DNA from: Sphingomonas hengshuiensis
GTDB lineage: Bacteria; Pseudomonadota; Alphaproteobacteria; Sphingomonadales; Sphingomonadaceae
Direction of reading: 5' to 3'
Length of the DNA: 64,000 nucleotides
Assembly: GCA_003240755.1 (NCBI GenBank)
Contig: QFNF01000007.1
Span: 62,001 to 126,000 of the forward strand
In this document: positions 5,993 through 44,356 of the stretch, piece after piece
How the letters are laid out: every line of letters starts with the position of its first letter
Position numbering within the stretch: position 1 is the first letter of the stretch
Translations under genes and position numbers: made by a program
The notes under the pieces: model-generated
The model's database searches: none
Told to the model about the DNA's origin: nothing
Seen by the model: only the letters and a program-made list of their open reading frames with translations

Positions 5993-8367
5993 AGTTCACC
6001 CTGGGCTGGCTGCACCAGCATCTCGCCACCGATGCCACGCTGGATACGATCCTGGACGGCCTCACCCGCATCGGGCTGGAGGTCGAGGGCGTCGAGAATC
6101 CGGGCGAGAAACTGGCCGCGTTCCGTATCGCCCGCGTGCTGAGCGCCGAACCCCATCCGCAGGCGGACAAGCTGCAGGTGCTGTCGGTCGATGCCGGCGC
6201 CGATGTAGGAAATGGGGGCCCGCTGCAGGTCGTGTGCGGCGCGCCCAATGCCCGCGCGGGGCTGGTCGGCGTGTTCGGCATGCCGGGCGCCACCGTCCCG
6301 GCCAACGGCATGGTGCTGAAGGTCGCGGCGATCCGCGGCGTCGAATCGAACGGCATGATGTGTTCGACGCGCGAACTCGAATTGGGCGAGGACCATGACG
6401 GGATCATCGAACTGCCCGATGATGCCCCGGTCGGCACCCCCTTCCCCGCCTATGCCGGGCTGGACGATCCGGTCATCGACGTCAGCATCACCCCGAACCG
6501 GCAGGATTGCATGGGCGTGCGCGGCATCGCACGCGATCTGGCGGCGGCGGGCTATGGCACGCTCAAACCCCTTGCGATGCCGGAGGTCGCGGGCACGGGC
6601 GCGGGGCCGGACGTCCGGGTCGAGGATGCCGATGGCTGCCCGGCCTTCTATGCGCAGGCGGTGCGCGGGCTGACCAATGGCGAGGCGCCCGAATGGATGC
6701 GCCGCCGGCTGGCCGCGATCGGGCAGAAGCCGATCTCGACGCTGGTCGACATCACCAACTATGTGATGTTCGACCTGGGGCGGCCGCTGCACGTCTATGA
6801 CATGGCCAGGCTGAACGGCGGGCTGGTCGCGCGGCGGGCGGTGTCCGGCGAGCGCGTCGTCGCGCTGAACGGCAAGTCGTACACGCTCGACGGTGGCGAG
6901 ACGGTGATCGCGGACGACGACGCCGTCCACGATATCGGCGGCATCATGGGCGGCGAGCATTCGGGCGTGTCGGCGACGACCACCGACGTGCTGATCGAAT
7001 GCGCGTACTTCACGCCCGAGGCGATCGCGCGGACCGGCCAGAGACTGGCCCTGACCAGCGATGCGCGCACCCGGTTCGAACGCGGCGTCGATCCGGCGTT
7101 CCTCGACCACGGTCTGGCGATCGCGACCGATTACGTGCTGCGACTGTGCGGCGGGACCGCCAGCGGCGTGACGCGTGCCGGATCGCCGCCGGTCGCGCCC
7201 CGCACCATCACCCACCGGCCGGAGCGGGTGGCGACCCTGGGCGGGCTGGACGTGGCCGAGAACCGGCAGCGCGACATCCTCGAACGGCTGGGCTTTGCGG
7301 TCGGCGATGGCTGGCAGGTAACGGTCCCGTCGTGGCGGCGCGATATCGACGGTACCGCCGACCTGGTCGAGGAGGTGATCCGGATCGAGGGGCTCGACAA
7401 GGTACCGTCCACCCCGCTCGACCGCCCGGCCGGGGTGGCGGTAGCGACCGCGACCCCCGAACAGAAGCTGGAGCGGCGGATGCGCCGCGCCGCCGCCGCG
7501 CGCGGGCTGGCCGAAGCGATCACATGGAGCTTCATCGCCGACGACGAAGCCGCCCCGTTCGGCGGCGGTGCGTGGGAAGTGGTCAATCCGATCGCCAGCG
7601 ACATGCGGGTGATGCGCCCCTCGCTGCTGCCCGGCCTGCTGAGCGCCGCCGCGCGCAATGCCAGGCGCGGCCAGTCGAGCGTGCGGCTGTTCGAGATTGG
7701 CCGGCGCTATCTGGCGACAGGCGAGCGCGCGACGCTGGGCATTGTGCTGGCGGGCGAGCGAACCCCGCGCAACTGGCGGAGCGGCAAGGCGCAGGGTTTC
7801 GACGCGTTCGACGCCAAGCGCGAGGTACTGGCGCTGCTGGAGGTTGCCGGCGCGCCGGTGGCGAACCTGCAGGTCATGGACGGTGCGGGCGACGTGTTCC
7901 ACCCGGGCCAGTCGGCGACGTTGCGGCTGGGGCCGAAGACGGTGCTGGCGAGCTTCGGCGTGCTGCATCCGACCACTGCCAGGGCGTTCGACCTCGGCGC
8001 AGGCGCGGTCGCCGCCGAAATCTATCTCGACGCACTGCCCGCCAGGCGCGGCAGCGGCTTCATGCGCGCCGCCTATGCGCCCCCGGCGTTGCAGGCGGTG
8101 ACGCGCGACTTCGCGTTCCTCGTCGCCGACGGCGTCGCCGGCGATCAACTGGTGCGCGCGGTACGCGGTGCCGACAAGGCGGCGATCGTCGATGCGCGGC
8201 TGTTCGACGTCTTCGCCGGACAGGGCGTAGAGCCGGGGCACAAGAGCCTTGCGGTCGAAGTCACGTTGCAGCCGGATGCCAAGAGCTTCACCGATGCCGA
8301 GCTGAAGGCGATTTCGGACAGGATCGTCGCGGCGGCGGCGAAGGTCGGCGGGACGCTGCGGGCATGA
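5989..8367 (+). CDS. pheT: Phenylalanine-tRNA ligase beta subunit
   Basis: This 792-residue subunit pairs with PheS. It starts [12 protein letters not shown], followed by the EMAP/tRNA-binding domain (about residues 40-150, with [15 protein letters not shown] just after it), the B3/B4 editing region (about 200-400), the B5 domain, and a C-terminal ferredoxin-fold anticodon-binding domain ending [17 protein letters not shown]. Length matches the family norm of about 800. The ATG overlaps the pheS stop (ATGA), indicating translational coupling, and its own stop overlaps the next start. Confidence 0.97.
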
Positions 8368-9233
8368 GCGCGGTCCTGACCAACGGGGTCCTGACGGCGA
8401 CGATCGATCCGCTGGGCGCCGAGCTGCAATCGCTGACGGATGCGGACGGGCGCGAGCTGATGACCAATGCCGATCCGGCCTATTGGACCGGCCATGCGCC
8501 GATCCTGTTCCCGATCATCGGCGCGCTGCAGGACGACACGTACCGGGTGGATGGCAAGGCCCATACCCTTGCCAAACACGGCTTTGCACGGCGGCGGATG
8601 TTCGCGAAGGTGGCGCAGAACGATGTTTCGGTGCGCTACGAACTGGCCGACGATGCCGGGACGCGGGCGGACTATCCCTTTGCCTTCGTGCTTCACGTGG
8701 AACATCGGCTGGACGGCGCGACGCTGCATACCGAGGTGGGCGTGACCAATTGCGGCGACCGCGACCTGCCGGCGAGCATCGGATTCCATCCGGCGTTCGC
8801 ATGGCCGCTGCCATACGGACACGACCGGGCGGCGCACCGGATGGTGTTTTCCGTCGCCGAAGGTGACACCGTCGCCGCGATCGCCGCCAACGGGACGATC
8901 GCGGCGCAGCGGCGCGCCAGCCCGCTCGACGGGCGGGACCTGTACCTGACCGACGCGCTGTTCGCCGACGATGCGTTGGTGTTCGATCCGGTGCACAGCG
9001 ACCATGTGACCTATGGCGCCGAAATCGGCCCGCAACTCCGCATCGATTTTCCGGGGATGCCGAAGCTGGGCGTGTGGACGAAGCCGGGATCGGCGTTCGT
9101 GTGCATCGAGCCATGGGACGGAATCGCCGACCCGGAAGGCTTTGCCGGCGACATATTCGACAAGCCCGGCATCCACCGGGTCGCGCCGGGAGCGACGCAC
9201 CGGGCGGCGATGGCGGTGACGCTGCAGGGGTAG
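8364..9233 (+). CDS. Aldose 1-epimerase family protein
   Basis: This 289-residue protein has the galactose-mutarotase-like beta-sandwich fold: GAELQSL near the start, APILFPIIG, KHGFAR (the conserved His at about 68), and SIGFHPAFAWPL (second His at about 138), then FVCIEPWDG with the catalytic-position Glu. Such proteins interconvert the anomers of hexoses or hexose-6-phosphates, or bind other sugars, in the cytoplasm; no signal peptide is seen. It overlaps pheT by four bases (ATGA), so it is co-transcribed with pheST, although no functional link is evident. A parS-like sequence lies inside it (8689-8704). Confidence 0.87.
   Translation: MSAVLTNGVLTATIDPLGAELQSLTDADGRELMTNADPAYWTGHAPILFPIIGALQDDTYRVDGKAHTLAKHGFARRRMFAKVAQNDVSVRYELADDAGTRADYPFAFVLHVEHRLDGATLHTEVGVTNCGDRDLPASIGFHPAFAWPLPYGHDRAAHRMVFSVAEGDTVAAIAANGTIAAQRRASPLDGRDLYLTDALFADDALVFDPVHSDHVTYGAEIGPQLRIDFPGMPKLGVWTKPGSAFVCIEPWDGIADPEGFAGDIFDKPGIHRVAPGATHRAAMAVTLQG
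8689..8704. promoter_or_regulatory. Candidate parS site inside the epimerase gene
   Basis: TGCTTCACGTGGAACA differs at one position from the ParB-binding consensus TGTTTCACGTGGAACA, with an intact CACGTG core. It lies about 27 kb from parA, inside a coding region, which is common for parS. Confidence 0.65.
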
Positions 9234-25711: not shown

Positions 25712-26308
25712 TTATCCGCCTTCGCCGGGGACCATGCAAGCGACCAGCGCGGCGACCTGCACCTGTGTTGCGCCGATCGTGGTATCGGTGCGGATAATAT
25801 GGTGGGCGCGAGCGCGCTTTTCGCCGTCGGGCATCTGGGTCGCGAGGATCGCGGCAAACGCCGACTCGGTCATGCCGGGGCGGGCGAGGACACGGGCGCG
25901 CTGGATATCGGGCGCGGCGGAAACGACGGCAACGGAATCGCAGCGTGCATCGCCGCCGGTCTCGAACAGCAGGGGTATGTCGAGCACGACCAGCGGTGCG
26001 GCGGCATGGGTGTCGAGGAAGCGTTGGCGCTCGGCGGCGACGGCGGGATGGACGATCGCTTCGAGCCGACGGCGGGCGTCCGGGTCGTCGAAGATGCGAT
26101 CGCGAAGCGCGGCGCGGTCGAGGCCGGCGGGACCGGTCGTGCCGGGGAAGGCGGCCTCGATCGCCGGGAGCAGCGCGCCGTTTGGCCCTTGCAGGGCATG
26201 CACGGCGGCGTCGGCGTCGAACACCGGGACGCCGAGGTCGCGGAACATCGTCGCGACGGTCGATTTTCCCATGCCGATCGATCCGGTGAGGCCGAGGATA
26301 TGGGTCAC
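25712..26308 (-). CDS. coaE: Dephospho-CoA kinase
   Basis: This 198-residue P-loop kinase catalyses the last step of coenzyme A synthesis, phosphorylating the 3'-OH of dephospho-CoA. It starts MTHILGLTGSIGMGKSTV with the Walker A motif at about residues 8-16, then VPVFDADAAVH and VLDIPLLFETGGDARCD, all typical of CoaE. The ATG overlaps the aroE stop (ATGA). Confidence 0.96.
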   Translation of the reverse strand: MTHILGLTGSIGMGKSTVATMFRDLGVPVFDADAAVHALQGPNGALLPAIEAAFPGTTGPAGLDRAALRDRIFDDPDARRRLEAIVHPAVAAERQRFLDTHAAAPLVVLDIPLLFETGGDARCDSVAVVSAAPDIQRARVLARPGMTESAFAAILATQMPDGEKRARAHHIIRTDTTIGATQVQVAALVACMVPGEGG

Positions 26309-27114: not shown

Positions 27115-27707
27115 GCGGGCAGCCTTCCCCGTTGGCGCAGATAGCGCGCGATTTCGAGCAACGGCATGCCGAGGATCGTCCAGTGATCGCCATCGATCCG
27201 GTCGAACAACTGCACGCCGCGACCCTCGATCCTGAAACAGCCGACACATCCGGCGATCGCCGGCCATTCGGCATCCAGATAGGATGCGATGAAGGCGTCG
27301 GACAGCGCGCGGACGGTCAGCTTCGCATGACCGATATGGCGCCATACCGGTCGCCCGCCCTCGACGAACACCGCCGCGCTGAACAGGTCGTGGCGCCCGC
27401 CCGACATGGCACGAAGGTGTGCGGCGGCATCCGCGCGATCCACCGGCTTGTCGAGCACGGTGCCATCGGCAAGTGCGACGACCGAATCCCCCCCCAATAC
27501 CATCGTACCGGGCACGCGGGTCGCGGCGCGCATCGCCTTCATCTCGGCCAGAGCATCGGCAAGGTCGCGCGGTTTCAGCGCCTCGGCCGACAGCGCGGCC
27601 TTGGCCGCCTCTTCGTCCAGCCCGCTCGCCATCGCGTCATGGGGAATGCCGGCCGCATCGAGCATCGCGCGACGGGTGGCACTCATCGAGGCAAGGACGA
27701 AGCTCAT
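27111..27707 (-). CDS. maf: Maf family nucleotide pyrophosphatase
   Basis: This 198-residue protein has the Maf/HAM1 fold: FVLASMSATRRAMLDAAGI (variant of the LASxSPRR motif, with SAT in place of SPR), GGDSVVALADGTVLDKP, RHDLFSAAVFVE and GCFRIEGRGVQLFDRIDGDHWTILGMPL. Maf proteins hydrolyse modified or canonical nucleoside triphosphates (dTTP, UTP, m7GTP types) to remove them from the pool. Which subtype this is cannot be told here. The start ATG overlaps the ppsR stop. Confidence 0.92.
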   Translation of the reverse strand: MSFVLASMSATRRAMLDAAGIPHDAMASGLDEEAAKAALSAEALKPRDLADALAEMKAMRAATRVPGTMVLGGDSVVALADGTVLDKPVDRADAAAHLRAMSGGRHDLFSAAVFVEGGRPVWRHIGHAKLTVRALSDAFIASYLDAEWPAIAGCVGCFRIEGRGVQLFDRIDGDHWTILGMPLLEIARYLRQRGRLPA

Positions 27708-28522
27708 GCCCGCTGCTCCAGCCTGCGATCGTTGCACAGGGTGATGATCGCCGCGGCGGTTTCCTCGATCGAGCGGCGGGTGACATCGATCACCGGCCAG
27801 CCATTATCGGCGAACATCCGCCGGGCATAGGACAGTTCCTTCACCACCGCATCCTGTTCGACATAGTCGGTGTCGGGCATCTGGTTGAGCGACAGCAGCC
27901 GGTTGCGGCGGATCGCGATCAGCCGGTCGGCGCTGGTGGTGAGGCCCACGACCAGCGGGTTCTTCAGGCCGAACAGGATCGCCGGTGGCGGGCTTTCCAC
28001 GACGATCGGAATGTTAGCGGTCTTGTAACCGCGATTGGCGAGGTAGATCGAAGTCGGCGTCTTGGACGAGCGGGACACCCCGGCCAGCACGATATCGGCC
28101 TCCTCCCAATCCTCCGACGCGATGCCGTCATCATGGGCGATCGTCCACTGGATCGCATCGACCCGCGCGAAATAGGCGGCGTCGAGGCTGTGCTGCCGGC
28201 CCGGCCGCGCCTTGGCCTCCTGCCCCAACAGGCTGGAGAGCGCGTTGCTGACCGCGTCCATCGGCGCGACGATCGGCAGGCCCAGCGCGGCGCAGCGTGC
28301 TTCCAGCATCCGGCGGATCGCCGGGTTGACCAGCGTGTAGAGTACCAGCCCGGGATTGACGGCAATCTCGGCCAGGATGCGTTCGAGATGCGTTTCGGAA
28401 CGCACCATCGGCCAGAAATGGCGCATCGTGTCGACATCGTCGAACTGCGCCAGCGCCGCCTTCGCGATATTCTCCAGCGTTTCGCCGGTGGAGTCGGACA
28501 GAAGGTGGAGGTGCAGCCGCAT
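27704..28522 (-). CDS. ppsR: Pyruvate dikinase regulatory protein (kinase/pyrophosphorylase)
   Basis: This 272-residue DUF299 protein starts MRLHLHLLSDSTGETLENIAKAALAQF and contains GVSRSSKTPTSIYLANRGYKTANIPIV (the phosphate-binding P-loop-like motif, about 148-174). The family inactivates pyruvate phosphate dikinase or PEP synthase by ADP-dependent phosphorylation and reactivates it by phosphorolysis. It is the first gene of the leftward run from the origin region, and its counterpart also flanks Cori in Caulobacter. Confidence 0.93.
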   Translation of the reverse strand: MRLHLHLLSDSTGETLENIAKAALAQFDDVDTMRHFWPMVRSETHLERILAEIAVNPGLVLYTLVNPAIRRMLEARCAALGLPIVAPMDAVSNALSSLLGQEAKARPGRQHSLDAAYFARVDAIQWTIAHDDGIASEDWEEADIVLAGVSRSSKTPTSIYLANRGYKTANIPIVVESPPPAILFGLKNPLVVGLTTSADRLIAIRRNRLLSLNQMPDTDYVEQDAVVKELSYARRMFADNGWPVIDVTRRSIEETAAAIITLCNDRRLEQRA

Positions 28523-28831
28523 GGGGCGCCTTTCTGCACAAGGCTGTGGATAAGTCGGGGGCAGGGGCTAGCGTAACTCGGACCCGCCGCCAAGCTGTGG
28601 GAAAACCGGTTTTCATGCCCAGCTTATCCACATTCCCGGCACAGGGGGCGATTCAACCAACAGGCTGTGGATAATGTGGACGACACCCCGTGAATCGGCG
28701 ACTTTGCGTGGGGTTCGCCCCGTCAATCTGTTGGCATTTCGGGTAATCCACCATAAGCCCCGATATCCACCGCCCAACCTCTTCCCACCATCTATCTAGA
28801 TTCTACTTTAATAGTAGAAGGAGCGACGACG
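28523..28831. other. Candidate chromosomal replication origin (oriC)
   Basis: This gene-free 309-base region lies between divergent ppsR and hemE. It holds perfect DnaA boxes at 28545-28553 (TGTGGATAA), 28624-28632 (TTATCCACA) and 28666-28674 (TGTGGATAA), a near-box TGTGGGAAA at 28596-28604, and weaker ones around 28744-28770. GANTC methylation-type sites occur at about 28651, 28692, 28799 and 28848. An AT-rich segment (28791-28819) may be the unwinding element. The hemE side and flanking gene order match Caulobacter Cori. Confidence 0.85.
28801..28819. promoter_or_regulatory. Inverted repeat in the hemE leader
   Basis: TTCTACTTTAATAGTAGAA is a perfect 7-bp inverted repeat with a 5-base centre. 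Its right arm overlaps the Shine-Dalgarno region (AGAAGGAG, 28816-28823), so folding in the mRNA could limit hemE translation. It is also the most AT-rich segment of the origin gap. Confidence 0.6.
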
Positions 28832-29863
28832 CTGACCGGTTCTCCTGATTCCAAACCGCTTCTCCGGGTGCTGGCCGGCGAGAAACCTGCCGTCCCGCCG
28901 CTCTGGCTCATGCGACAGGCCGGGCGCTATCTTCCCGAATATCGCGCGCTACGGGCGGACAAGGGCGGGTTCCTCGATCTCGTCAACGATCCCGCGGCAG
29001 CGACCGAGGTGACGTTGCAACCCCTGCGCCGGTTCGCGTTCGACGGGGCGATCCTGTTCAGCGACATCCTGATGGTGCCGAACGCGCTGGGACAGAAACT
29101 GTGGTTCGAAACGGGTGAGGGGCCACGGCTTGCCCCCGAACTGCGCACGCGTGCGGCGATCGATGCACTGGTGCCGGACGCTGCGATCCTCGACCCGGTC
29201 TATGCGACGGTGCGTGGCGTGGCCGCCGCCCTGCCGCCGTCCACGACCTTCCTGGGCTTCGCAGGATCGCCGTGGACGGTCGCCACCTACATGATCGCGG
29301 GCAGGGGTAGTCGCGAGCAGGCCGAGGCGCGCAGGATGGCCTATGGCGACCCTGGGGCGGTGCAGGAACTGATCGACCGGATCGTCGCGATGACGGTCGA
29401 TTACCTTGCCGGACAGGTCGCGGCCGGGGTCGAGGCAGTGCAGTTGTTCGACAGTTGGTCGGGCAGCCTTGCCCCGGCTGAGTTCGAACGCTGGGTCATC
29501 GCGCCGACGGTGGCGATCGTCGAGCGCCTGCGCGCGCGGGTGCATGTGCCGATCATCGGCTTCCCCAAGGGCGCAGGCGGCAAGCTCGCCGCCTATGCGC
29601 GTGAAACGGGCGTCGACGCGATCGGGCTGGACGAGACGGTCGATCCGGCCTGGGCGAACACGCAGTTACCCGCAGGCCTGCCGGTACAGGGCAATCTCGA
29701 CCCGTTGCTGCTGATCGCCGGTGGCGCGGCGCTCGACGCGGGGGTCGACCGGGTGCTCGCGGCCTTTGCGGACCGACCGCATGTGTTCAATCTGGGGCAC
29801 GGCATCCAGCAGGATACGCCGATCGCGCATGTCGAGCGGCTGGTCGCGCGGGTACGCGCATGA
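28832..29863 (+). CDS. hemE: Uroporphyrinogen decarboxylase, probable CTG start
   Basis: This enzyme decarboxylates uroporphyrinogen III to coproporphyrinogen III in haem synthesis. It contains PLWLMRQAGRYLPEYRALR (substrate arginine and catalytic region), FSDILMVPNALG, and the C-terminal FNLGHGIQQDTPIAHVERLVARVRA. The family N-terminus (TGSPDSKPLLRVLAGEKP) requires a start at CTG 28832, eight bases after AGAAGGAG; the next standard codon, GTG 28868, would trim 12 conserved-type residues. This gives 343 residues, the family norm. It overlaps hemJ by ATGA. Confidence 0.92.
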   Translation: MTGSPDSKPLLRVLAGEKPAVPPLWLMRQAGRYLPEYRALRADKGGFLDLVNDPAAATEVTLQPLRRFAFDGAILFSDILMVPNALGQKLWFETGEGPRLAPELRTRAAIDALVPDAAILDPVYATVRGVAAALPPSTTFLGFAGSPWTVATYMIAGRGSREQAEARRMAYGDPGAVQELIDRIVAMTVDYLAGQVAAGVEAVQLFDSWSGSLAPAEFERWVIAPTVAIVERLRARVHVPIIGFPKGAGGKLAAYARETGVDAIGLDETVDPAWANTQLPAGLPVQGNLDPLLLIAGGAALDAGVDRVLAAFADRPHVFNLGHGIQQDTPIAHVERLVARVRA

Positions 29864-35368: not shown

Positions 35369-35985
35369 CCGAACAGGATGCACGCGACTGGATCGCGACC
35401 CGATATGGCGATGCGCGGACCGCGACATTGGCGCGCTTCGCCGACCGGATCGTCATCGAAACCGCGCACCAGAACCTGATCGCGGCGTCGACGATCGACT
35501 CGATCTGGCAACGGCATCTGCTCGACTCGGCGCAGCTCGTGCCGCTCGCCGCCGATGCTGGCGATGGCGACTGGATCGATATCGGCTCGGGTGCCGGGTT
35601 TCCCGGAATCGTCGCGGCGATCCTTGTCGATCGACCGGTCATATTGGTCGAGCCGCGGGCGCGGCGGGCCATGTTGCTGTCTGACATGGCGCGCGATCTG
35701 GGGCTGACCAACGTCGTCGTGCACCAGGCAAGGATCGAGCGATTGGTTGGGGATCGACCGGCGGCGATTATCAGCGCGCGCGCTGTCGCGCGACTGTCGG
35801 CGTTATTTGCGATCGGCCATCGGCATGGCGATGGCGATACGATATGGCTATTGCCAAAGGGGCGCTCCGCCACCGAGGAACTGGCCGATGCCGGGACCGA
35901 ATGGTGCGGAACGTTTCACGTGGAACACAGCATTACCGATCCGACTTCGTCGATCGTGGTCGCCAGGGGAGTGCGCCGAGCATGA
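35365..35985 (+). CDS. rsmG: 16S rRNA (guanine-527 N7) methyltransferase
   Basis: This 206-residue S-adenosylmethionine methyltransferase (formerly GidB) contains the SAM-binding [16 protein letters not shown] (about residues 72-87) and [12 protein letters not shown]. It methylates G527 of 16S rRNA; loss gives low-level streptomycin resistance. The ATG overlaps the mnmG stop, and the stop overlaps the parA start. Near its 3' end it embeds a parS-like site (35912-35927). Confidence 0.95.
35912..35927. promoter_or_regulatory. Candidate parS site within rsmG
   Basis: CGTTTCACGTGGAACA matches the ParB consensus TGTTTCACGTGGAACA at 15 of 16 positions. It lies 55 bases before parA, inside the 3' coding end of rsmG. 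Confidence 0.88.
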
Positions 35986-36761
35986 TTTGCATTGCCATCG
36001 CGAACCAGAAAGGGGGCGTCGGCAAGACCACCACGGCGATCAATGTCGGCACGGCGCTGGCGGCGACCGGCCTCGACGTGCTGATCCTCGATCTCGATCC
36101 GCAAGGTAATGCTTCGACCGGACTGGGCATCGGACGCAACGATCGCGAGCATTCGACCTATGACCTGTTGGTTGGCGACTTGATGCTGAACGAAGCGGCG
36201 ATCGCAACCAAGGTGCCGCGGCTGTCAATCGTGCCGGCGACGGTCGACCTGTCGGGTGCCGAGATCGAACTGATCGAGTTCGAAGCGCGAACCCACCGGC
36301 TCGATCGGGTGGTCGAGGCGAGCGGCGGGCGGTGGGACGTGATCCTGATCGACTGTCCACCGTCGCTGGGACTGCTGACCATCAACGCGATGGTGGCGAG
36401 CCATGCGTTGCTGGTGCCGCTCCAGTGCGAATTCTTTGCGTTGGAAGGCCTCAGTCAGTTGCTGAGCACCGTCGAGCGTATCCGCGGGCGGTTCAATCCG
36501 GGACTGTCGATCCTGGGGGTGGTATTGACGATGTACGACCGGCGCAACCGCCTGACCGATCAGGTGTCGGACGATGTGCGCGCGGTGTTGGGGAAAGTGG
36601 TGTTCGATACGGTGATCCCGCGCAACGTGCGCCTGTCCGAAGCACCCAGCCATGGCATGCCGGCACTGATCTACGACTATCGTTGCGCCGGATCGGAAGC
36701 CTATATCGCGCTGGCCCGCGAGGTGATCGCCCGGCTGCCGTCGCTGGCGGAAGCGGCATGA
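35982..36761 (+). CDS. parA: Chromosome partitioning ATPase ParA
   Basis: This 259-residue protein starts [22 protein letters not shown] with the deviant Walker A motif (KGGVGKT), then DLDPQGNASTGLG (A' box) and VILIDCPPSLGLLT (Walker B), and ends in the ParA C-terminal domain. Its ATP-dependent DNA binding pulls ParB-parS complexes toward the pole. The longer open frame from 35844 is only the rsmG overlap. It overlaps rsmG and parB by ATGA. Confidence 0.97.
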   Translation: MICIAIANQKGGVGKTTTAINVGTALAATGLDVLILDLDPQGNASTGLGIGRNDREHSTYDLLVGDLMLNEAAIATKVPRLSIVPATVDLSGAEIELIEFEARTHRLDRVVEASGGRWDVILIDCPPSLGLLTINAMVASHALLVPLQCEFFALEGLSQLLSTVERIRGRFNPGLSILGVVLTMYDRRNRLTDQVSDDVRAVLGKVVFDTVIPRNVRLSEAPSHGMPALIYDYRCAGSEAYIALAREVIARLPSLAEAA

Positions 36762-37675
36762 GCGAGCAGGCGACACCGCGTCGTCCACGCATGGGGGGGC
36801 TTGGCCGGGGACTGAGTTCGTTGCTGGGCGAACCCGATGGCGACGGGACGACGACCCGCGGATCATCGTCGCCGGGCGGCGTGCGTCAGTTGCCGGTGAC
36901 GGCGCTGTCGCCGCTGCCGGGCCAGCCGCGGCGGTTCTTCGACGAGGCGGCGCTCGACGAACTGGCCGAATCGATTTCCGCGCGCGGCGTGATCCAGCCG
37001 ATCGTCGTACGCCCGCACGGCAAGGGCTATCAGATCGTTGCCGGCGAACGTCGCTGGCGCGCGGCGCAGCGGGCGCGGCTGCACGAGGTGCCGGTGGTCG
37101 TTCGCGAGTTTACCGATGCGGAGACGATGGAAATCGCGCTGGTCGAAAACATCCAGCGGCGCGACCTGACCGCGATCGAGGAGGCCGAAGGCTATCGCCG
37201 GCTGATCGACGAGTTCGGCCATACGCAGGAGGCGCTCGCCAATCTGGTGGCCAAGTCGCGCAGCCATGTCACCAACCTGTTGCGGCTGCTGGAACTGCCT
37301 AAGCCGATCCAGGACATGGTCGGCGACCAACGGTTGAGCATGGGCCATGCCCGCGCGCTCATCAACGTACCGGGTGCCGAGACGATCGCCGAGAAGGTCG
37401 TGGCCAAGGGCCTGTCGGTCCGCGATGTCGAACGCCTTGCCCGGCAGACGCGCGAGCCCGATGCACGGCGCAGTCGCACGCCGCGCGAGGCGGCGAGCGC
37501 GGTGGACGGAACCATCGACGCCGATCTGCGCTCGCTGGAGCGGCAATTGGGCGATGTACTCGGGCTGAAGGTCCAGATCGCGCATGGCGAGAAGGGCGGG
37601 ACGATCACGATCGGTTATTCCACGCTCGGCCAGCTCGATATGGTTTGCCAGCGGTTAAGCGGCGACCGCATCTGA
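36758..37675 (+). CDS. parB: Chromosome partitioning protein ParB
   Basis: This 305-residue protein starts MSEQATPRRPRMGGLGRGLSSLLG (the ParA-stimulating N-terminal arginines). It then has the ParB/Srx CTPase domain with GVIQPIVVRP and GERRWRAAQRA (about 88-115), a helix-turn-helix domain with NIQRRDLTAIEEAEGYRRLIDEFGHTQEALA and SRSHVTNLLRLLELP, and a C-terminal dimerisation domain. ParB loads at parS and slides as a CTP clamp. Four parS-like sites are in the window. Confidence 0.97.
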   Translation: MSEQATPRRPRMGGLGRGLSSLLGEPDGDGTTTRGSSSPGGVRQLPVTALSPLPGQPRRFFDEAALDELAESISARGVIQPIVVRPHGKGYQIVAGERRWRAAQRARLHEVPVVVREFTDAETMEIALVENIQRRDLTAIEEAEGYRRLIDEFGHTQEALANLVAKSRSHVTNLLRLLELPKPIQDMVGDQRLSMGHARALINVPGAETIAEKVVAKGLSVRDVERLARQTREPDARRSRTPREAASAVDGTIDADLRSLERQLGDVLGLKVQIAHGEKGGTITIGYSTLGQLDMVCQRLSGDRI

Positions 37676-44340: not shown

Positions 44341-44356
44341 TATTCCACGTGAAACG
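44341..44356. promoter_or_regulatory. Candidate parS site after fdxA
   Basis: TATTCCACGTGAAACG has the CACGTG core with good flanks and matches TGTTCCACGTGAAACA at 14 of 16 positions. It lies in the gap between fdxA and carD, about 6.7 kb past parB. Confidence 0.65.

Follow-up and report, generated by a model that had tools for sequence, protein, structure and literature searches.

The stretch of DNA that we analysed (64 kb, hereafter the window) contains a 309-bp gap (28523..28831) between two divergent genes, ppsR and hemE, and we predict this gap to be an oriC. The ppsR gene, encoding the PPDK/PEP synthase regulator, occupies 27704..28522 on the minus strand (NF003742, 322.8 bits for a cut-off of 225), while hemE occupies 28832..29863 on the plus strand (TIGR01464, 379.3 bits for a cut-off of 302.95), with a probable CTG start at 28832. 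In an earlier note on this DNA, the leftward gene order was given as ppsR, maf, aroE, coaE and dnaQ, and the rightward one as hemE, hemJ, rho, mnmE, mnmG, rsmG, parA and parB; both series were matched by NCBIfam models. The names Maf, HemJ, RsmG and ParA correspond to scores under the curated cut-offs of their models, the parA product (35982..36761, plus strand) matching ParA/MinD-type families, and ParB (36758..37675, plus strand) was named via a domain model (TIGR00180, 190.4 bits for a cut-off of 58.45). Scanning 28300-29100 with Rfam for structured RNA gave no match at E up to 1.

Related loci were retrieved with HemE (80 loci) or came from a genus draw (29 loci). In 101 of these 109 loci, ppsR and hemE were adjacent, divergent and less than 1.5 kb apart; no ppsR was found in the remaining 8, which were dropped from the gap counts. 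Removal of 9 gaps from other alphaproteobacteria left 92 related gaps, or 93 with the window. These 92 gaps were assigned to the Sphingomonadales on the basis of their record titles and of HemE similarity, without a tree, and they include some MAGs with broad titles and one record titled Microvirga (L013), the gap of which is likewise Sphingomonas-like. The closest relatives of the window were L002 (Sphingomonas panni) and L001, with a HemE identity of 92-93% and a DNA identity of about 88% across 4 kb around the gap. L001 is titled 'Bacillus sp. 2B10' yet is Sphingomonas-like; because its HemE shares 93% identity with that of the Sphingomonas-type window, this public name looks wrong.

The right end of the gap, at 28831, depends on the CTG start of hemE, the first in-frame ATG, GTG or TTG being found at 28868. 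hemE probably starts at this CTG (28832-28834), which lies 8 bases after an AGGAG Shine-Dalgarno. In 13 of the 93 gaps, a Shine-Dalgarno precedes a CTG and none precedes a standard start; among these 13, an upstream in-frame ATG was present in L009, L086 and L090, and a TTG in L066 and L102. In L003, a TTG is found at the same distance as the CTG of the window.

Three perfect DnaA boxes (TTATCCACA) had been claimed in the gap, and they are indeed present at 28545..28553 (minus strand), 28624..28632 (plus strand) and 28666..28674 (minus strand). No other perfect box occurs in the whole 64 kb. When one mismatch was allowed, the window contained 8 boxes compared with 3.13 expected (none of 100 shuffles reached 8), and the 309-bp gap contained 3, compared with a mean of 0.031 and a maximum of 1 in 1000 single-base shuffles. 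To these counts we added a measure of conservation, for which the window was aligned with the 92 related gaps and counterparts with at most two mismatches were counted (background 1%). The most conserved box was the one at 28545, found in 90 of the 92 relatives, while those at 28666 and 28624 were found in 62 and 46, respectively. Another box place, at 28656..28664 (plus strand), is kept by 63 of the 92 relatives and is degenerate in the window, where it reads ACCAACAGG and adjoins the box at 28666; judged by eye, it is also degenerate in the two closest relatives. A weak box with 2 mismatches (ATATCCACC, 28763..28771, plus strand), missed in the earlier note, is moderately conserved (37/92) and is oriented toward the candidate unwinding element described below. 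The near-box previously listed at 28596-28604 does exist (TTTCCCACA, 2 mismatches) but is poorly conserved, with a counterpart in only 7 of the 92 relatives, and a near-match at 28744 had a counterpart in a single one.

A box with at most one mismatch was present in 88 of the 92 related gaps and absent from the other 4, the mean number of such boxes being 2.39 per gap compared with 0.04 when these gaps were shuffled. We also tallied perfect boxes throughout the 24 of 61 genomes that had full listings (23 and G002). Among the 163 perfect boxes of these genomes, 26 fell in the matching 2.16 kb of ppsR-hemE, where 0.08 would be expected by even spread; this region held at least one perfect box in 17 genomes and none in 7. 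In G001 (3.9 Mb), all five perfect boxes were on one contig, at 65.5-82.5 kb, i.e., within about 17 kb around the locus.

Upstream of hemE lies a conserved block, GTCAATCTGTTGGCA (28722..28736), found as GTCAAnnTGTTGGCA in 52 of the 93 gaps, which is possibly part of the hemE promoter. It contains a possible 5-pair hairpin, nearly invariant across the gaps, so that its covariation cannot be judged. A scan of 28400-28900 for sigma-70 consensus promoters and terminators found none. DnaA can double as a transcription factor, and the conserved block could be promoter sequence; both points are in favour of the boxes belonging to a DnaA-regulated promoter region of hemE and ppsR, the true origin being elsewhere, for instance at dnaA.

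Within the 64-kb window, the GC skew showed no clear flip at 28.5 kb. A skew change at this locus had been put forward in the earlier note as a check of the origin, and we performed this check in five relatives (G047, G049, G062, G012 and G035) in which the locus is on a near genome-length contig. From each genome, 21-25 stretches of 20 kb were sampled (112 stretches in total, about 8-12% of each genome), which gives a resolution no finer than about 100-250 kb. A split at hemE was the best one, or within 0.0002 of the best, in four of the five relatives, and G035 gave no support. When samples less than 30 kb from hemE were excluded, the hemE split equalled the highest grid value in G047, G049 and G062, and scored 0.0418 for a best of 0.0420 in G012, in which the grid maximum was then about 240-280 kb from hemE. 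The value of the hemE split was reached by 0, 0, 34 and 22 of 5000 permutations in G047, G049, G062 and G012, respectively. When the near samples were included, the highest-scoring grid point was 23, 4, 1 and 29 kb away from hemE in the same four genomes, the score at hemE being below the grid maximum in G047 (0.0542 vs 0.0590) and in G012 (0.0377 vs 0.0474). The 20-kb stretches flanking hemE had opposite skew signs in G049, G062 and G035, and were both positive in G047 and G012.

In G035, the score at hemE was 0.0047 (permutation p 0.38) and the best split was elsewhere, which is again in line with a promoter region at the locus and an origin at another place. Several observations argue against this explanation. 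The distance from dnaA to the hemE locus was 1408, 1722, 1706 and 1168 kb in G047, G049, G062 and G012, respectively, and the skew score at dnaA was below zero in all four of these relatives, the ones in which it was measured. With the G002 DnaA as a query, no relative of this protein was found in the window. The skew in four of the five relatives and a parS site in all five (see below) indicate hemE. We therefore regard a DnaA-regulated promoter region with a distant origin as very improbable.

The window contains two parS-like sites with 2 mismatches to TGTTTCACGTGAAACA, at 8689..8704 and 35912..35927, and a weaker one, with 3 mismatches, at 44341..44356, which makes 3 sites with up to 3 mismatches compared with 0.06 expected. 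Among the 112 stretches sampled in the relatives, a parS site (at most 2 mismatches) was found in 5, one in each of the five genomes, and each of these stretches adjoins the downstream side of hemE. This includes G035, though it is without skew support. In the related loci, the count was made on the 56 of the 80 HemE-retrieved loci that are longer than 20,900 bases; 49 of them contained parS (at most 2 mismatches), and all but four of the sites in the 56 loci were 4-11 kb away on the hemE side, the loci themselves ending near 11 kb. The location of parS 4-11 kb to the right would also suit an origin that is nearby yet outside the gap, e.g., closer to parAB or parS, as would the resolution of the skew sampling and the further perfect boxes that L001 and L002 have in or between neighbouring genes. 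All the perfect boxes of the window and its least stable 30-mer are inside the gap, and the positions of the boxes are conserved there, which makes an origin just outside the gap extremely unlikely in our view.

This 30-mer (28790..28819), the least stable one in all 64 kb, lies beside hemE and corresponds to the AT-rich segment that had been noticed in the gap, and we propose it as the unwinding site. In 87 of the 92 related gaps, the 30-mer of lowest stability had its centre no more than 60 bases upstream of the hemE reference codon. A DnaA-trio motif, TAATAGTAGAAG, was suspected at 28810-28821; under the published rule, the window has no match there. The rule asks for three or more trios no further than 16 bp from a DnaA box, and our script simplifies the published program (PMC8287927). 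In the window, the only match to the rule was a minimal run of 3 situated to the left of the boxes at 28666 and 28675, with no run at the AT-rich element beside hemE. Among the 93 gaps, runs of 3 were found in 24, compared with 37.5 (range 32-46) in controls in which the boxes were retained and the remaining gap sequence was shuffled; the corresponding figures were 4 and 10.5 for runs of length 4, and 0 and 2.1 for runs of length 5. Since matches to the rule were rarer than in controls, and absent from the AT-rich element of the window, we claim no BUS (DnaA box, spacer, DnaA-trios) there. The arrangement resembles a BUS in that the weak box is directed at the AT-rich element; it differs by the absence of a trio run matching the rule at this element and by a count over the 93 gaps below that of the shuffled control. 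One speculative idea, to which we give little credence, is that origins of Sphingomonadales may open without canonical DnaA-trios, via a conserved hemE-side module guiding DnaA onto single strands. The module would consist of the weak box, a GC-rich GCCAAC-type stretch and then the least stable DNA. If true, it would represent a variant of the unwinding system specific to this lineage.

As for other sites, several GANTC motifs had been reported in the gap, and we found three: CcrM-type targets at 28650..28654 and 28692..28696 (the latter with GAATC as its alignment consensus), and a site at 28799..28803, within the AT-rich element. Only 1.8% of 619 overlapping tiles of the window reached 3. 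The 92 related gaps contained 4.65 GANTC sites per gap, compared with 1.22 in shuffles. A match to N6_N4_Mtase was present in all six relatives searched; the one that was checked, in G002, was CcrM-like (NF050803, 603 bits, under the cut-off of 830). A rise in GANTC around the origin has been reported for four alphaproteobacterial orders, including Sphingomonadales (PMC9836097). Any role of GANTC methylation at the present origin is putative. The gap contained no exact match to the full CtrA site (TTAA-N7-TTAA), and no IHF consensus (WATCAN5WTR) on either strand.

The boxes of the gap, their concentration there at the genome scale, the skew in four of five relatives and parS in five of five support the reading of this place as a probable origin that was made in the earlier note. 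With the boxes, the unstable element, and the skew and parS data from relatives, we are highly confident that the chromosome of a Sphingomonas-type alphaproteobacterium has its replication origin in this gap. The relatives serve here as a proxy for the window's own species, in which the same reading should hold. DnaA would bind the boxes at 28545, 28624 and 28666 as well as the weak box at 28763, and would open the AT-rich element (28790-28819) just before hemE. One fork would then proceed leftward through ppsR and the other rightward through hemE, the right-hand fork soon copying a parS site, parA and parB.

We take COG1806 to be the ppsR family. Like the gap, Cori of Caulobacter crescentus is flanked by hemE and the COG1806 gene, and it contains DnaA boxes as well as an AT-rich part of 40 bp (PMC1914354). 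Unlike the gap, which has no exact match to the full CtrA site or to the IHF consensus, Cori has five sites for CtrA and one for IHF. Related origins without CtrA sites are reported in the same article (PMC1914354), so that CtrA sites are not required for the wider hemE-type class. As the gap is also without an IHF consensus match, we classify it as a hemE-type origin rather than a copy of Cori. What it shares with hemE-type (Cori-like) origins is the hemE-ppsR location, a cluster of DnaA boxes beyond chance and an AT-rich region.

The origin is a well-supported yet ordinary one, at the position already predicted for relatives, and some of its local details were established here. DoriC places the predicted origin of most Sphingomonadaceae on the hemE side, and the same prediction exists for Sphingopyxis granuli TFA. 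As in the present case, the predicted origins are near hemE, in a gene order that is conserved, and combine DnaA boxes with a putative unwinding element (PMC4741004); those predictions concern other species and other exact sites. We add to them the skew, the parS sites and the genome-wide box counts in relatives. In Novosphingobium sp. PP1Y, Ori-Finder indicated three DnaA boxes near hemE, the same number as in the window; the DnaA gene is reported to be close by in that strain, whereas dnaA is more than 1.1 Mb away in the four relatives studied here (PMC4059872 for the PP1Y data). The proximity of dnaA to the origin is described as not conserved in Sphingomonadales, for which parAB may be a good anchor (PMC8116508). 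Among 114 closed genomes of this order, there were just 17 in which Ori-Finder yielded a single unambiguous origin (PMC9836097). The ppsR-hemE gap, parS and a conserved unstable element together offer a simple, testable way of placing the origin in Sphingomonadales, and the exact sites are available for DnaA-binding tests or for building plasmids.

A few minor observations were made on boxes outside the gap. In L002, one perfect DnaA box (7392-7400) falls within the loop formed by a long palindrome where aroE and coaE meet; the 21-kb locus has 7 perfect boxes, all in one orientation. Boxes with one mismatch near 25789 and 32385 in the window are, by approximate position, counterparts of the flanking-gene boxes of L001 and L002. 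The window has 5 non-origin near-boxes compared with about 3 expected, and we do not claim these as a real feature. Finally, the S. panni genome has three tandem perfect DnaA boxes on another contig (G002:C28:4704-4735), which possibly represent a plasmid origin.
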